From Deltaproteobacteria bacterium (lineage in GTDB: Bacteria; Desulfobacterota; DSM-4660; Desulfatiglandales; HGW-15): a stretch of 35,332 nucleotides of DNA. This document shows positions 25,978 through 32,223 of the stretch, piece after piece (the first letter of the stretch is position 1; each line of letters opens with the position of its first letter). A program made the translations under genes and the position numbers. Where the stretch lies: positions 1-35,332 of the forward strand of contig JAFGGA010000104.1 of the NCBI GenBank assembly GCA_016930835.1, given 5' to 3'. The notes under the pieces were generated by a model. It did no database searches, had not been told where the DNA came from, and saw nothing but the letters and a program-made list of their open reading frames with translations.

Positions 25978-27153
25978 ATGAAAGAAGCAGTGATTGTAAG
26001 TGCAGTCAGAACACCATTAGGCGCTTTTAATGGGGCCATAGGGAATATAGGTGCCACCAAATTGGGGGCGATCGTGATTGAAGAGGCCGTGAGGCGTGCA
26101 GGTATTGACAAGGAGGTTATTAACGAGGTCATTATGGGGCAAGTGCTCCCCTGTGGTTATGGCCAAAATCCAGGTAAGCAGGCCGCGGTTCAGGCTGGGA
26201 TGCCCTGGGAGGTGGAGACCATTACCATTAATAAAGTATGCGGATCCTCATTAAAAGCGGTCATGTTGGCTACTCAGGCTATCCAGGTGGGTGATGCGGA
26301 TGTGGTGGTAGCCGGTGGAATGGAGAGCATGAGCATGGCTCCATATTACCTGGATAAGGCCCGTTTCGGTTACAGGATGGGACCCGGCGCATTGGTCGAC
26401 CATATGGTCCACGACGGTCTTTGGGATATTGTAAATGATTTTCACATGGGTATATCCAATGAACTCTGCTCCGAAAAATACAATGTGAGTCGGGAAGATC
26501 AGGATCGGTTTGCGGTGGAGTCATATCGTAGGGCAACGGAAGCCATCAAGACCGGTAAATTCAAGGATGAAATCATTCCCATTGAGATCCCGCAACGAAA
26601 AGGGGACCCTGTTATTTTTGATACGGACGAATGCCCAAGAGAAACGAGCTACGAGGTTATGGCTAAAATGAAAGGTGCCTTTCAAAAAGACGGCAAAGGC
26701 ACCGCGGGCAATTCTTCTATTATCAGTGATGGTGCCGCGGCTGTTGTAGTGATGTCACGGGATAAGGCGGAGGCCCTGGGTTGTAAAATCCTGGCGACCA
26801 TTGGCGCCCAGGCATCTTACGGTATTGACATGAAATATGTGCTGGTGGCCCCCATTTGGGCTATCCCAAAATGTTTGAAAAAGGAGGGGATCACGCTGGA
26901 TGACGTGGACTTGTTTGAGATCAATGAAGCATTCAGCGGATCTTCGGTGGCCATTATACGGGAACTCAAATTGGATGCCGATAAGGTGAATGTGAATGGT
27001 GGGGCCGTGGCTCTCGGACATCCTATTGGTGCCAGCGGGTGTCGCGTCCTGGTGACATTACTCTATGAAATGATTCGCCAGGACAAGAAAATCGGTCTGG
27101 CCTGCCTCTGTCTGGGCGGCGGAGAGGCCGTGGCGATGGTGGTGAAGAGGTAA
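25978..27153 (+). CDS. Acetyl-CoA C-acetyltransferase (classical thiolase)
   Basis: A 391-residue degradative/biosynthetic thiolase. All three classical sites are present: the nucleophile in [11 protein letters not shown] (about Cys88), [10 protein letters not shown] with the His (near 347), and CLCLGGGEA with the proton-transfer Cys near 377. It condenses two acetyl-CoA or cleaves acetoacetyl-CoA. AAGGAGA gives a good start at 25978. In contrast with the three SCP-x-type proteins of region 1 this one is textbook. It begins a co-directional group with 3-hydroxybutyryl-CoA dehydrogenase, acyl-CoA dehydrogenase and ETF. Confidence 0.95.
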
Positions 27154-27280: not shown

Positions 27281-27322
27281 TTGCTACTTAATCTAAAAAT
27301 ATCTAAGTAAATGGAGGTAACA

Positions 27323-28174
27323 ATGGAAATTAAAACTTTTGGTGTGATTGGTGCCGGTCAAATGGGAAACGGGATTGCACAAGTTGTGGCCATGAGCGGA
27401 CTGAATGTCATCATGAATGATATCAGACAGGAATTTGTTGAAAAGGGAGTCAAGGCCATTACTAAAAATCTTGACCGCAGTGTGGACAAGGGCAAGATGT
27501 CCAAAGAAGACAGGGACGCCGTATTGGGCAGGATCAAGACCAGCGTGGATATCAAAGATATGGCCGATGTAGACTTTGCCGTTGAGGCGGCCACAGAAAA
27601 CGAACCCTTAAAATTCCAGATATTTAAAAATTTGGATGAGACCTGCCGCCCTGAAGTCATCTTGGCGACCAATACGTCTTCCATTCCCATCGGGCGCATC
27701 GCCTTCCAGACCAAGCGGCCGGAAAAGGTGATCGGTATGCACTTTATGAACCCGGTTCCGGTTATGAAACTGGTGGAAGTCATCCGTGGCTTGGCCACAT
27801 CCGACGAAACCTTTAACGTGACATGGGAGCTTGCGGAAAAATTCGGCAAAACCCCGGCACTGGCCAATGATTACCCCGGTTTTATTGCCAACCGGATCCT
27901 TATGCCGATGATCAATGAGGCCATATTTTGCCTGTATCAAAGTGTCGGGACAAAGGAAGATATTGATACGGTCATGAGGTTGGGCGCTAATCACCCCATG
28001 GGACCGTTGACTCTAGCGGATCTGATAGGGCTGGATACATGCCTTGCCATTATGGAAACCCTTTACGATGGTTTTAAAGATTCAAAATATCGGCCCTGCC
28101 CCCTGCTCAGAAAATATGTGGAGGCCGGATGGCTGGGTCGCAAAACCGGACGGGGCTTTTATACATATGACTAA
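27323..28174 (+). CDS. hbd: 3-hydroxybutyryl-CoA dehydrogenase
   Basis: A 283-residue NAD(P)-dependent 3-hydroxyacyl-CoA dehydrogenase interconverting acetoacetyl-CoA and 3-hydroxybutyryl-CoA. The dinucleotide loop GAGQMG is at residues 10-15 and the active-site His lies in GMHFMNPVPVMKLVE (about 137-151). The C-terminal dimerization domain ends KTGRGFYTYD, and the length equals clostridial Hbd proteins. The ATG at 27323 follows GGAGG; an ATG 12 bp upstream overlaps that site. It follows the thiolase, consistent with the last steps of butyryl-CoA oxidation. No enoyl-CoA hydratase is present between it and the acyl-CoA dehydrogenase. Confidence 0.95.
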   Translation: MEIKTFGVIGAGQMGNGIAQVVAMSGLNVIMNDIRQEFVEKGVKAITKNLDRSVDKGKMSKEDRDAVLGRIKTSVDIKDMADVDFAVEAATENEPLKFQIFKNLDETCRPEVILATNTSSIPIGRIAFQTKRPEKVIGMHFMNPVPVMKLVEVIRGLATSDETFNVTWELAEKFGKTPALANDYPGFIANRILMPMINEAIFCLYQSVGTKEDIDTVMRLGANHPMGPLTLADLIGLDTCLAIMETLYDGFKDSKYRPCPLLRKYVEAGWLGRKTGRGFYTYD

Positions 28175-28239: not shown

Positions 28240-28303
28240 GGCGCAAGGCGTATGGCAAAGGGCACAAGGTTTTTTCATCCCCTTGCGCCCTGCGCCTTGT
28301 GCC
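28240..28303. repeat. Long imperfect hairpin between hbd and acyl-CoA dehydrogenase
   Basis: Outer arms GGCGCAAGGCGTA and TGCGCCTTGTGCC (11 of 13 paired) and inner arms GGGCACAAGG and CCTTGCGCCC (9 of 10 paired) surround a TTTTTTCATCC-type loop. It lies in the 183-bp gap and could separate transcription or protect RNA ends. Confidence 0.6.
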
Positions 28304-28357: not shown

Positions 28358-29503
28358 ATGTCTTTTTTGACGACCAAACACACCCTGGTTCGTCGTTCGG
28401 TCCGTGCCTTCTGCGAACGGGAACTCCAGCCAATTGCCAAAGAACTTGATATCGAGGCCCGATTTCCATGGGACGTGGTGGAGAAAATGGGAAAATTGGG
28501 CTATTTCGGAATCCAGGTTCCAGCGGCCTTATCCGGAGCGGCCATGGATTCGGTGAGCTATTGTATCGTAATAGAAGAGATATCCAGGGCATGCGCGGGT
28601 TTGGGACTGTGCGTGACCGTCCATAACAGCGTGGGGGTCTATCCGTTGGTGGCCTTCGGGACGGAAGAACAAAAGCAAAAATGGGTCCCTCCCCTAGCCA
28701 AAGGAGAAAGGATCGGGGCCTTTTGTTTGACCGAACCCAATGTCGGCTCTGATGCCTCAGCGGTCGAATCCACAGCCATTCGCGACGGAGACCATTATAT
28801 CGTGAACGCCAACAAGGTGCTCGTTACTAATGGCGCCGTGGCGGATACATGTCTGATGTTTGTCAAAACCGATCCTGCCGCCGGGCATCGAGGACTTAGT
28901 GTCATTGTGGCGGAGCGGGGCATGCAGGGCTTTATCATCGGCGATCTTGAGGACCTCTCCGGCAATCGTGCCAACGCGGTATCTTCCATCAGGCTTACGG
29001 ATTGTCGCATCCCGGTCAGCCATCTTTTAGGCAAAGAAGGGATGGGCATGAAGATCGGCCTCGCGGCCCTGGACACTGGCCGGATCGGGATTGCGGCCCA
29101 AGCTTTAGGGATCGCCCAGGCCGCGATGGAAGAAGGGATTCGTTATGCCCAACAACGCCGTCAGTTTGGCGTGCCGATCTCGAGGCATCAGGCTGTTCAG
29201 ATGATGATCGCGGATATGGCCACCAAGGTGGATGCGGCGCGTCTATTGGTTTATCGAGCCGCGGCCCAGAGGGACAGCGGTGGACCGTTTTCCAAGGAAT
29301 CGGCCATGGCCAAGTTATTTGCATCGGAGATTGCCAGCGAGGTGGCGGACATGGCCGTCCAGATCCATGGTGGGTACGGCTATACCAAAGGTTATCCGGT
29401 TGAACGATATTATCGAGATGCGAGGATCACCCGCATCTATGAAGGAACCGCGGAGATTCATCGTATCGTCATCGCGAGAAGCGTTTTGGAGGAATATAAA
29501 TAA
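28358..29503 (+). CDS. Short-chain acyl-CoA dehydrogenase (butyryl-CoA dehydrogenase type)
   Basis: A 381-residue acyl-CoA dehydrogenase with the standard catalytic Glu362 in RIYEGTAEIHR, unlike the other family member at 9307-10452. Further landmarks are CLTEPNVGSDASAVES (near 126-141), QRRQFGVPISRHQAVQ and GGYGYTKGYPVERYYRDA. It should oxidize butyryl-CoA or a similar short acyl-CoA and give electrons to the ETF encoded next to it. The first residues are a little shorter than usual (MSFLTTKHTLVRRSV), and no Shine-Dalgarno sequence is evident before the ATG at 28358, so the start is less certain. Confidence 0.93.
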   Translation: MSFLTTKHTLVRRSVRAFCERELQPIAKELDIEARFPWDVVEKMGKLGYFGIQVPAALSGAAMDSVSYCIVIEEISRACAGLGLCVTVHNSVGVYPLVAFGTEEQKQKWVPPLAKGERIGAFCLTEPNVGSDASAVESTAIRDGDHYIVNANKVLVTNGAVADTCLMFVKTDPAAGHRGLSVIVAERGMQGFIIGDLEDLSGNRANAVSSIRLTDCRIPVSHLLGKEGMGMKIGLAALDTGRIGIAAQALGIAQAAMEEGIRYAQQRRQFGVPISRHQAVQMMIADMATKVDAARLLVYRAAAQRDSGGPFSKESAMAKLFASEIASEVADMAVQIHGGYGYTKGYPVERYYRDARITRIYEGTAEIHRIVIARSVLEEYK

Positions 29504-29560
29504 CGGTACAAGGTATATGGTGTGCGGTTAAACTCATGTCAATTCAGATCTTTGCCAAAG

Positions 29561-29588
29561 ACCTTATACCGTACACCTTATACCGTAC
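29561..29588. repeat. Tandem 14-bp repeat, two units
   Basis: ACCTTATACCGTAC occurs twice head to tail, and a related inverted sequence (GGTACAAGGTATATGGTGTGCGG) lies at 29505-29527. The whole can fold into an imperfect stem. It lies in the gap between the dehydrogenase and ETF beta genes. Confidence 0.6.
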
Positions 29589-29650: not shown

Positions 29651-30427
29651 ATGCCCCTCAACATCATCATTTGCATCAAGGCAGTGGTCTTGGAAGCACC
29701 GGACGGCAAGGTGATTCGAACGTCTGAGACGTGCGCGTTAAACCCCTTTGACCGGCCTGCTATCGAGATGGCCATAAGATTACGCGATGAGGCGGGCGGC
29801 ACGGTTACGGCAGTTTCCATGGGCCCGGAGTCTGGTTCATTAGCCCTGTATGAGGCCTTGGCCATGGGTGTAGATCATGTTGTTTTGGTATCCGATCCAT
29901 CTTTGGCCGGCTCCGATACCTTCGCTACATCAACCGTCCTGAGTGCGGCTATTCGGAAGCTCGCCCCTTTTGACCTTCTCCTTTTCGGCACCCGGACATC
30001 GGATAGTGATACTGGGCAAGTGGGTCCTCAAACCTCCGTCCTGCTGGATATCCCCCTGGTAACCGGGGTGACTGCTGTTACACGGAAAAAAGCCAATTTC
30101 ATCGTTGAACGTAAGATCGATGAATTTATTGAAGAATATGAGGTCGCCTTACCGGGGGCCTTGACCATCCACGCGAGCGCCTTGCAGCCAAGGGATGCGT
30201 CCTTGATGGGTCTCGAGACGGCCTATGGACAGGAGCAATTTACACTCATGACCTTAAAAGATCTGGATATCCTGGCTGAACAGGTTGGTGATAACGGCTC
30301 ACCCACAAAGATTATCAATATGCAACGAATACAGAAAAAACGAAAGTGCGAGATGATTCAAGGATCAGTGGAAGAACAAGCTGAAGAACTGGTCCGACGA
30401 CTCAAAGAAGCCGGGCATATTGGATGA
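29651..30427 (+). CDS. etfB: Electron transfer flavoprotein beta subunit
   Basis: A 258-residue ETF beta subunit that accepts electrons from acyl-CoA dehydrogenases together with the alpha subunit. It opens PLNIIICIKAV, and the AMP/FAD-binding region shows GTRTSDSDTGQVGPQTSVLLDIPLVTGV (about 117-144). The C-terminal half has EYEVALPGALTIHASALQPRDASLMGLETA, typical of ETF beta. I start at the ATG at 29651, preceded by AAGGAA; the open frame extends 129 bp further upstream, but that part is repeat sequence. It lies 28 bp from the repeat and about 206 bp before the alpha-subunit fusion gene. Confidence 0.92.
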   Translation: MPLNIIICIKAVVLEAPDGKVIRTSETCALNPFDRPAIEMAIRLRDEAGGTVTAVSMGPESGSLALYEALAMGVDHVVLVSDPSLAGSDTFATSTVLSAAIRKLAPFDLLLFGTRTSDSDTGQVGPQTSVLLDIPLVTGVTAVTRKKANFIVERKIDEFIEEYEVALPGALTIHASALQPRDASLMGLETAYGQEQFTLMTLKDLDILAEQVGDNGSPTKIINMQRIQKKRKCEMIQGSVEEQAEELVRRLKEAGHIG

Positions 30428-30496
30428 GTCTTGTGGAAAGGTCTAAGAAAATTTCAAATGGGTTATCAATTAATGAGTGAGCATTTATTATCCCGT

Positions 30497-30570
30497 GCTA
30501 TCAGCCATCAGCAGTCAGCTGAAACCTTTAAAATAATTATTTGGCTGATGGCTGACCGCTAAATGCTTCA
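30497..30570. repeat. Intergenic palindromic repeat, family with 34097-34171, copy 1
   Basis: It begins GCTATCAGCCATCAGCA and ends TTTGGCTGATGGCTGACCGCT. CAGCCATCAG and CTGATGGCTG form the stem around an AT-rich loop. A diverged copy with the same ends occurs at 34097-34171. It lies between the two ETF genes. Confidence 0.6.
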
Positions 30571-30633
30571 TTTATCAACCGCTCATTTGAGGATGGATAC
30601 TGCTGACCTTGTTGCTTTGATGAGATACATAGA

Positions 30634-32223
30634 ATGACTAAACCATTTAACAACGACATCTGGGTATATATTGATCAAAGAAATCGGAAGCACCTTGACC
30701 TCTGTCTCCATTTACTCGCTGCGGCCCGCAATTTGGCGGAGCCGTTAAAATCAAAGGCAACGGCGATTCTTTTGGGTTTATCACCGGAATATCCGAATAT
30801 CAATGATACGGCCGAGGCCTGCCTTGCCCAAGGTGCGGATCACGTCTTGATCGTTGACCAATCTGAATTGAATACCCAGAGAACCGATATCCATGCCCAG
30901 GCCCTCTTTCAGATCATTCAACAAAAAGTCCCGCGAGCCGTTCTTTTTGCGTTATCCGATTTCAGCAGAGAGATAGCCGCTCGCACCGCATGCATGTGTC
31001 ATGCGGGTCTTATCGCCGATTGCGTCACCCTTCAGGTGGAAGGTGGACAAATCAAGGCAGGCTGCCCGTCCTGGGGCGGTGAGATCATGGCTGAATTGGG
31101 CTTTTCCGATCCCACTCAAACAGGATTCGCGACCGTTCAGCCTCATGCATTTCAGAAGAGTGAGGTGCGCGGAACACCAGGGACCGTTGAAAAGATATCG
31201 GTTCAAGACATGCCAGTCTCGCAAAAATTAAAATGCCTGTCTTCCTCAGAAGCCGCGGTGGATCACCAAAAATTGGAAGAGGCCGAGATCGTTGTCGTGG
31301 GCGGGGCCGGCTTGGGAAACGCCGATGGGTTTGCTTTGGTCCGCCAGCTGGCCGCGGCCATGGGTGGAGAAGTGGGTGCAACGCGACCGCCGGTGGTCTA
31401 CCACTGGGTGGATGAAGAACGACTGATCGGACAGACCGGCAAGACCGTTCGACCAGGTCTTTTGATCTCCGTTGGTACATCCGGTGCGATCCAGTACACG
31501 GTCGGCATCACGGAATCAAAAACCATTGTCGCTGTTGATCGTAATCCCAACACCCCGATCTTCCACATAGCGGATTTTGGAATTGTTGCCGACGCCAAGT
31601 CCTTTCTGCCGCCCCTAATTGCCCGGGTGAAACAGGTCGTGATGCGTGACCTCGCCGATGCCTTGAGTGGGGAAAAGACCAATGGAGCAGGAAGTGGATT
31701 TGGTCAAAAACTAAAAAAGCTGAGGGAATCACACGGATGGACCATTGAAGAACTCGCCCAGCATACAGGTCAGTCTCCGGAATCGATTCAACAGGTTGAA
31801 AAAGATGAGGTGGTCCCATCCGTCAGCTTTTTGCTCAGACTATCCAAGGCCTTAAAGATTGATCCCGGCACGTTTTTACATGATGAAGAGAAAGCCGCCA
31901 TCAGAGATCAACGGGCCCAGGCCTTTATCAAACGAACCAAGAACTATTATTACCAGACCCTGACCCCAGGTGCTGAAAATGAGCACTTGCGCGGCTTCAT
32001 GATCACCATTGAGCCCAACCAGGTCCATAAGCCAGTGGCCTACAAACATGAAGGAGAGGAGTTTATCTATGTCATGGAAGGGGATTTGGAACTTACCCTG
32101 GACAACAAAAAGAACCACCTTCGACCCGGCGAATCCAAGCACTTTAATTCCGAAACACCCCACAAGCTCAAAAACCTCGGAAATCAAACCACCCGTTGCC
32201 TGGTGGTACTTTACACGCCCTGA
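30634..32223 (+). CDS. etfA: ETF alpha subunit fused to XRE helix-turn-helix and cupin domains
   Basis: One uninterrupted 529-residue frame. Residues 1 to about 335 are an ETF alpha subunit: the N-terminal ETF domain, then the FAD domain with VVGGAGLG (221-228), LIGQTGKTVRPGLLISVGTSGAIQ (264-287) and PIFHIADFGIVAD (308-320). After a flexible linker (about 340-355, GEKTNGAGSG) comes an XRE-type helix-turn-helix (about 356-411: KLKKLRESHGWTIEELAQHTG..). Residues about 437-527 are a small cupin with HEGEEFIYVMEG (472-483) and PHKLKN (509-514). Stand-alone ETF alpha is about 320-340 residues, so the whole C-terminal 190 residues is extra and has the layout of an XRE-cupin transcription regulator. 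The FAD-binding signatures look intact. The DNA-binding part may regulate these same genes, or may have become a structural module. The ribosome binding site is weak. Confidence 0.9.
   Translation: MTKPFNNDIWVYIDQRNRKHLDLCLHLLAAARNLAEPLKSKATAILLGLSPEYPNINDTAEACLAQGADHVLIVDQSELNTQRTDIHAQALFQIIQQKVPRAVLFALSDFSREIAARTACMCHAGLIADCVTLQVEGGQIKAGCPSWGGEIMAELGFSDPTQTGFATVQPHAFQKSEVRGTPGTVEKISVQDMPVSQKLKCLSSSEAAVDHQKLEEAEIVVVGGAGLGNADGFALVRQLAAAMGGEVGATRPPVVYHWVDEERLIGQTGKTVRPGLLISVGTSGAIQYTVGITESKTIVAVDRNPNTPIFHIADFGIVADAKSFLPPLIARVKQVVMRDLADALSGEKTNGAGSGFGQKLKKLRESHGWTIEELAQHTGQSPESIQQVEKDEVVPSVSFLLRLSKALKIDPGTFLHDEEKAAIRDQRAQAFIKRTKNYYYQTLTPGAENEHLRGFMITIEPNQVHKPVAYKHEGEEFIYVMEGDLELTLDNKKNHLRPGESKHFNSETPHKLKNLGNQTTRCLVVLYTP

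Follow-up and report, generated by a model that had tools for sequence, protein, structure and literature searches.

An ETF alpha subunit with a C-terminal XRE-type helix-turn-helix and cupin in acyl-CoA dehydrogenase operons of Desulfobacterota

Desulfobacterota that oxidize fatty acids exist close to the energetic limit; the control of electron flow at their acyl-CoA dehydrogenase step is an open question. In a 35,332-nucleotide stretch of DNA from a Deltaproteobacteria bacterium (contig JAFGGA010000104.1, hereafter the window), one gene encodes an ETF alpha subunit followed by an XRE-type helix-turn-helix (HTH) and a cupin. What is such a module doing on an electron carrier? The initial annotation, made from the sequence, offered two answers: a DNA-binding regulator that reads the flavin redox state, or a ligand-sensing cupin that tunes ETF activity. 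A sensor-type domain on an electron carrier, conserved across many families, would make the control of electron flow testable on one protein.

The fused gene, its distribution and its origin

The gene is a single uninterrupted open frame of 529 amino acids with an ATG start. It gives four Pfam matches above the curated cut-offs: ETF (residues 9–192, 2.6e-26), the ETF_alpha FAD domain (213–292, 1.2e-27), HTH_3 (360–412, 7.7e-12) and Cupin_2 (456–525, 1.2e-16). The first two place the N-terminal part among ETF alpha subunits, and the XRE HTH-then-cupin order of the remainder is found both by Pfam and by profile comparison. The gene, its parts and its neighbors are:

25978–27153, forward strand: thiolase (Pfam); in the same operon in the closest relatives
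27311–28174, forward strand: 3-hydroxyacyl-CoA dehydrogenase (Pfam); in the same operon in the closest relatives
28358–29503, forward strand: short-chain acyl-CoA dehydrogenase (Pfam); nearest solved relative is Bcd in C. difficile Bcd-EtfAB (5ol2)
29651–30427, forward strand: etfB, the partner subunit (Pfam); nearest in structure databases to bifurcating ETFs, whose diagnostic Gly is a Ser here
30494–30573, no strand: copy of a dispersed repeat, lying between etfB and etfA and containing a 12-bp inverted repeat; six further genome sites at 75–92% identity, not operon-specific
30634–32223, forward strand: fused gene, ETF alpha + XRE-type HTH + cupin, 529 amino acids (open frame, Pfam, homologues)
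30658–31209, forward strand: ETF N-terminal domain, residues 9–192 (Pfam); 41% mean pairwise identity, the lowest of the folded parts
31270–31629, forward strand: ETF alpha FAD domain, residues 213–332; R251 and T268 are retained and Y288 stands at the alpha-His position; mean pairwise identity 70%
31630–31698, forward strand: variable linker, residues 333–355 (homologue alignment); low model confidence at 346–353
31699–31875, forward strand: XRE-type HTH, residues 356–414 (Pfam, alignment); acidic reading face
31876–31968, forward strand: HTH-cupin connector, residues 415–445; R427, R434, Y438 and Y440 invariant
31969–32220, forward strand: cupin, residues 446–529 (Pfam); triad H472, E476, H510 invariant; 72% mean pairwise identity

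The cupin and the FAD domain are the best conserved parts among the fusion homologues (mean pairwise identity of 72% and 70%), followed by the HTH (56%), the ETF N-terminal domain (41%) and the linker (34%). A short Gly/Ser-rich stretch is present at about residues 333–355, as annotated, but the linker varies between homologues in both length and sequence. The AlphaFold2 model of the fusion (pLDDT 78, pTM 0.43) is uninformative on the relative placement of the domains.

The same three-domain order is conserved in many genomes of sulfate-reducing bacteria and their relatives, where it is placed behind etfB. Scanning the GTDB collection of genomes gave 20 homologues covering all or nearly all of the protein, at 48–60% identity (L008–L027, with L024 truncated where its contig stops). 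A fusion-length frame occurs in 22 of the 85 genomes of the window's own class and, in an even sample across the phylum, in 22 of 395, three divergent ones in one family included; fusion-level matches were found in about 39 of the 291 genomes of a second class. Most carrier genomes have one copy, and G021 has two different ones (L121 and L129). Strain NaphS2 is a carrier that is in culture. Since independent homologues share the architecture, some of them in single-contig or near-complete assemblies, a frameshift or an assembly artefact is ruled out as the origin of the fusion, and the uninterrupted ETF alpha, XRE HTH and cupin frame claimed by the initial annotation is borne out. An apparently split fusion in G584 results from a single frameshift within the FAD domain.

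A non-exhaustive scan of the whole collection by peptide patterns found no full-length fusion outside Desulfobacterota-like records, which include some unclassified "Deltaproteobacteria" that carry the label Myxococcota in the name look-up. No description of such a fusion turned up in a search of the open-licence literature for ETF combined with cupin and with XRE or HTH, and an earlier notice elsewhere is possible. The fusion is conserved and apparently undescribed so far.

A maximum-likelihood tree built from 90 HTH-cupin modules places every fusion, the divergent family among them, in a single clade (support 99/90), within which the regular fusions are a subclade (99/91). The stand-alone modules lie outside; some of them are long branches whose exact branching order is unsure. 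A single fusion event is therefore the simplest reading of these sequences. The divergent fusions of one family (L160, L161 and L162) branch beside the main fusion clade, with 32–34% identity in EtfA and 43–45% in the HTH-cupin. An apparent 590-residue EtfB fusion at these three loci is an over-extended reading frame that overlaps the dehydrogenase gene.

The ETF part and its operon

The closest solved relatives of EtfA and EtfB are bifurcating ETFs, and that of the dehydrogenase is Bcd in the C. difficile Bcd-EtfAB complex (5ol2_C). Bcd-EtfAB and CarCDE (5ol2, 6fah), bifurcating acyl-CoA dehydrogenase/ETF complexes that provide the best solved matches to the dehydrogenase and to each ETF subunit, have the same gene trio, but they are without the HTH-cupin that the window's fusion has. 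CarE and LctC are likewise ETF alpha subunits extended by an added domain; theirs are N-terminal ferredoxin domains, which serve as an iron–sulfur electron relay, whereas the HTH-cupin is C-terminal.

The roles of the flavin-site Arg, Ser/Thr and His of ETFs are described in PMC12630350. In the 38 aligned fusions the Arg is kept in 37 and the Thr in all, while the His is replaced by Tyr in 36 and by Phe in two. The FAD region had been called intact, which holds for most of the FAD-site residues but not for this His, a Tyr in the window. LctC, which is of the bifurcating type, likewise has a Phe at this position, so the loss of the His is compatible with ETF function and with domain membership. 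The partner subunit also departs from bifurcating ETFs: the Gly that is invariant in them (Gly123 of A. fermentans EtfB, PMC12630350) is a Ser in 41 of the 43 EtfB partners and a Gly in two, with a few loci counted twice. Judging from sequence, a second FAD is conceivable despite this replacement, Ser being small.

The position given for etfB by the initial annotation is right, and the fused gene lies directly behind it in an operon for acyl-CoA oxidation. The etfB frame is also open from a GTG at 29522, 129 bases before its likely ATG start. An acyl-CoA dehydrogenase gene precedes etfB and the fusion in 38 of the 40 loci whose surroundings could be read (all but L023 and L170) and in all six loci added later, that is, in 44 of 46. 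A 4-base overlap of etfB with the fused gene is frequent. In the closest relatives of the window, the thiolase and 3-hydroxyacyl-CoA dehydrogenase genes lie upstream of the dehydrogenase-etfB-fusion row.

The nearest stand-alone HTH-cupin proteins (about 40–50% identity) are often encoded directly before a different acyl-CoA dehydrogenase, and therefore the link of the module to acyl-CoA metabolism is probably older than the fusion. Some stand-alone genes, e.g., those of family f13, are not placed in this way. In the window's own taxonomic order, stand-alone genes lie next to a methylmalonyl-CoA-type mutase, a B12-binding protein and MeaB. At L134 (2248–8066), and also at L133, L135 and L137, a stand-alone HTH-cupin gene is part of an operon-like row with methylmalonyl-CoA-type mutase, MeaB and acyl-CoA dehydrogenases.

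The HTH: regulator or structural element

The fused HTH retains the residues of the buried core and of the fold. The helices by which DNA would be read are acidic instead of basic or polar: the mean net charge of helices 2–3 is -4.2 in 48 fusions versus 0 in the DNA binders PuuR, SutR and 434 repressor, a small control set of three. It is -5 in HppE, and -2.1 and -1.8 in two stand-alone groups of Desulfobacterota. The PuuR and SutR sequences come from the genome of E. coli and that of HppE is identical letter for letter to the PDB entry; for 434 repressor, we used what we take to be its sequence. A stand-alone group of Bacteroidales (-5.1) is as acidic as the fusions, so charge alone is not decisive and acidity is no proof. 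The positions by which 434 repressor contacts DNA, mapped onto the fused HTH, have within the fusion set a mean entropy of 1.77, versus 1.48 for other surface positions, and 3888 of 5000 random position sets were at least as conserved.

Upstream of the fusion operons (local regions of 38 loci), no palindrome was enriched above shuffled sequence, and the upstream regions of one fusion subgroup gave no shared palindrome enriched above shuffles. The region 30428–30633 had been proposed as a target of the protein. The inverted repeat in it (30501–30555, with a spacer of 31 nt) was rejected as an operator, since it is part of the dispersed repeat, which has six other copies in the genome.

The regulator had been expected to fail if the HTH of homologues lacked DNA-contacting residues, and this is in part what is seen, with an acidic face and contact positions no better conserved than the rest of the surface. 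These two traits, together with the absence of a shared palindrome and the dispersed nature of the one at 30428–30633, leave the proposed flavin-redox-reading regulator unsupported. The regulator reading is weakened, although these computations leave DNA binding possible. The case cautions against taking every annotated HTH for a transcription factor.

ETF subunits are normally abundant, an odd copy number for a local repressor. This, along with the acidic face, the unconserved contact positions and the missing shared palindrome, counts against a PutA-like bifunctional protein, in which ETF alpha would also repress its own acyl-CoA dehydrogenase-etfBA operon, with a cupin that senses a metabolite and a flavin state that possibly alters DNA binding. 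The idea is nonetheless a serious possibility, if on balance a doubtful one. The fused HTH keeps its core and passes the Pfam cut-offs, and acyl-CoA dehydrogenase operons contain the fusion as well as many of the stand-alone proteins related to it. XRE-cupin regulators (PuuR, SutR, ErfA, PsdR and the solved 1y9q) share with the fusion the HTH-then-cupin order and the neighboring metabolic genes; among solved structures, 1y9q comes closest to the module as a whole (profile match 1.2e-17). Those of Pseudomonas bind palindromic DNA, repress adjacent metabolic genes locally and probably sense metabolites of the pathway (PMC7901475), so that prior expectation favors DNA binding and stands against a structural HTH. 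Unlike the fusion, with its acidic HTH and no operator found, they are stand-alone proteins. Trifunctional PutA is itself a catabolic flavoprotein that uses a fused DNA-binding domain to repress its own regulon (PMC5293562), but its domains (RHH and proline dehydrogenase) are unrelated and its DNA binding is proven; the likeness is one of analogy, not homology.

The cupin as a predicted sensor

H472, E476 and H510, together with R427, R434, Y438 and Y440, are invariant in all 38 aligned homologues. HppE matches the entire HTH-cupin module by profile (6.5e-7) and by fold, and HEPD and MPnS are further fold matches. Its iron ligands H138, E142 and H180 align with the invariant triad, and its Y103 and Y105 with Y438 and Y440. 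The triad is thus of the 2-His-1-Glu metal type, the metal itself being predicted; it is also kept in the stand-alone relatives. HppE resembles the fusion in having an HTH, acidic in both, ahead of a cupin, but it is a stand-alone protein of 23% identity and the alignment shows that its K23, R97 and N135, which we take to be substrate-site residues, are not conserved in the fusion. The HTH of HppE is structural.

The full triad, the two aligned Tyr and the fold matches could mean that the cupin is itself an enzyme, an HppE-like mononuclear iron enzyme that acts on a pathway intermediate and is tethered to its electron carrier. The loss of the HppE substrate residues, the equal presence of the triad in stand-alone relatives and the anaerobic hosts, in which an enzyme using oxygen or peroxide would be unlikely, make this improbable. 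More improbable still is that the HTH-cupin merely sets the oligomeric state, as a non-sensing scaffold that would keep at least two ETFs close to the dehydrogenase tetramer; the constant partner dehydrogenase and the flexible linker would suit it, but the seven invariant pocket-type residues exceed what a scaffold needs.

We prefer a sensor or allosteric module on the ETF over a PutA-like autoregulator, because of the evidence from the HTH against a regulator and the conservation of the cupin residues. The fused ETF alpha would have EtfB and the neighboring short-chain acyl-CoA dehydrogenase as its working partners, and the HTH-cupin module would hang on its C terminus by the flexible linker. 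The module may descend from a stand-alone XRE-cupin protein whose gene lay next to those of acyl-CoA dehydrogenases, the HTH having turned mainly structural after the fusion, for dimerization or as part of the pocket, as in HppE. The cupin would bind a metal along with a small ligand, anionic or acyl, and in the bound state would tune the assembly of the dehydrogenase-ETF unit or the electron flow through it.

We consider the chances of this modulation by a tethered metal- and ligand-binding cupin, with a mainly structural HTH, to be about even. It is favored by the conservation of the cupin and the FAD domain, the invariant triad, Arg and Tyr residues, the alignment with HppE, the acidic HTH, its unconserved contact positions, the lack of an enriched palindrome in 38 operons and the dehydrogenase neighbor in nearly all loci; the retained fold residues of the HTH, the equally acidic Bacteroidales group and the missing HppE substrate residues count against it. 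The earlier suggestion of a ligand-sensing cupin that tunes ETF activity fits better than a redox regulator does, while the effect on the ETF is a prediction. It is a tentative and rather unlikely extension that, in syntrophic and sulfate-reducing bacteria, an ETF with its own metal-cupin sensor gates the electrons coming from acyl-CoA oxidation or signals the state of the ETF to transcription. If true, it would be a controlled electron carrier of a new kind.

Repeats near the fused and stand-alone genes

The palindromes that precede stand-alone genes (CTGATNATCCTSATCAG and others), judged by eye, are probably conserved coding sequence of the upstream reading frame and were set aside. A repeat of the TATAAT-N4-ATTATA type lies upstream of the stand-alone gene at L149, L150, L152 and L154, over a promoter-like TTGAAA...TATAAT, and is common to 3 of 7 members of the group. 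It is a candidate autoregulatory site of the stand-alone relatives, which is suggestive only.

Within the window, the gap between the dehydrogenase gene and etfB contains a tandem 14-mer, ACCTTATACCGTAC, at 29561–29588, and two further sites in the genome have CTTATACCGTACACC. Another inverted repeat is present at 28240–28303, in the gap before the dehydrogenase gene. The operon gaps of the window seem to have accumulated repeats where many relatives show short gaps or overlaps.
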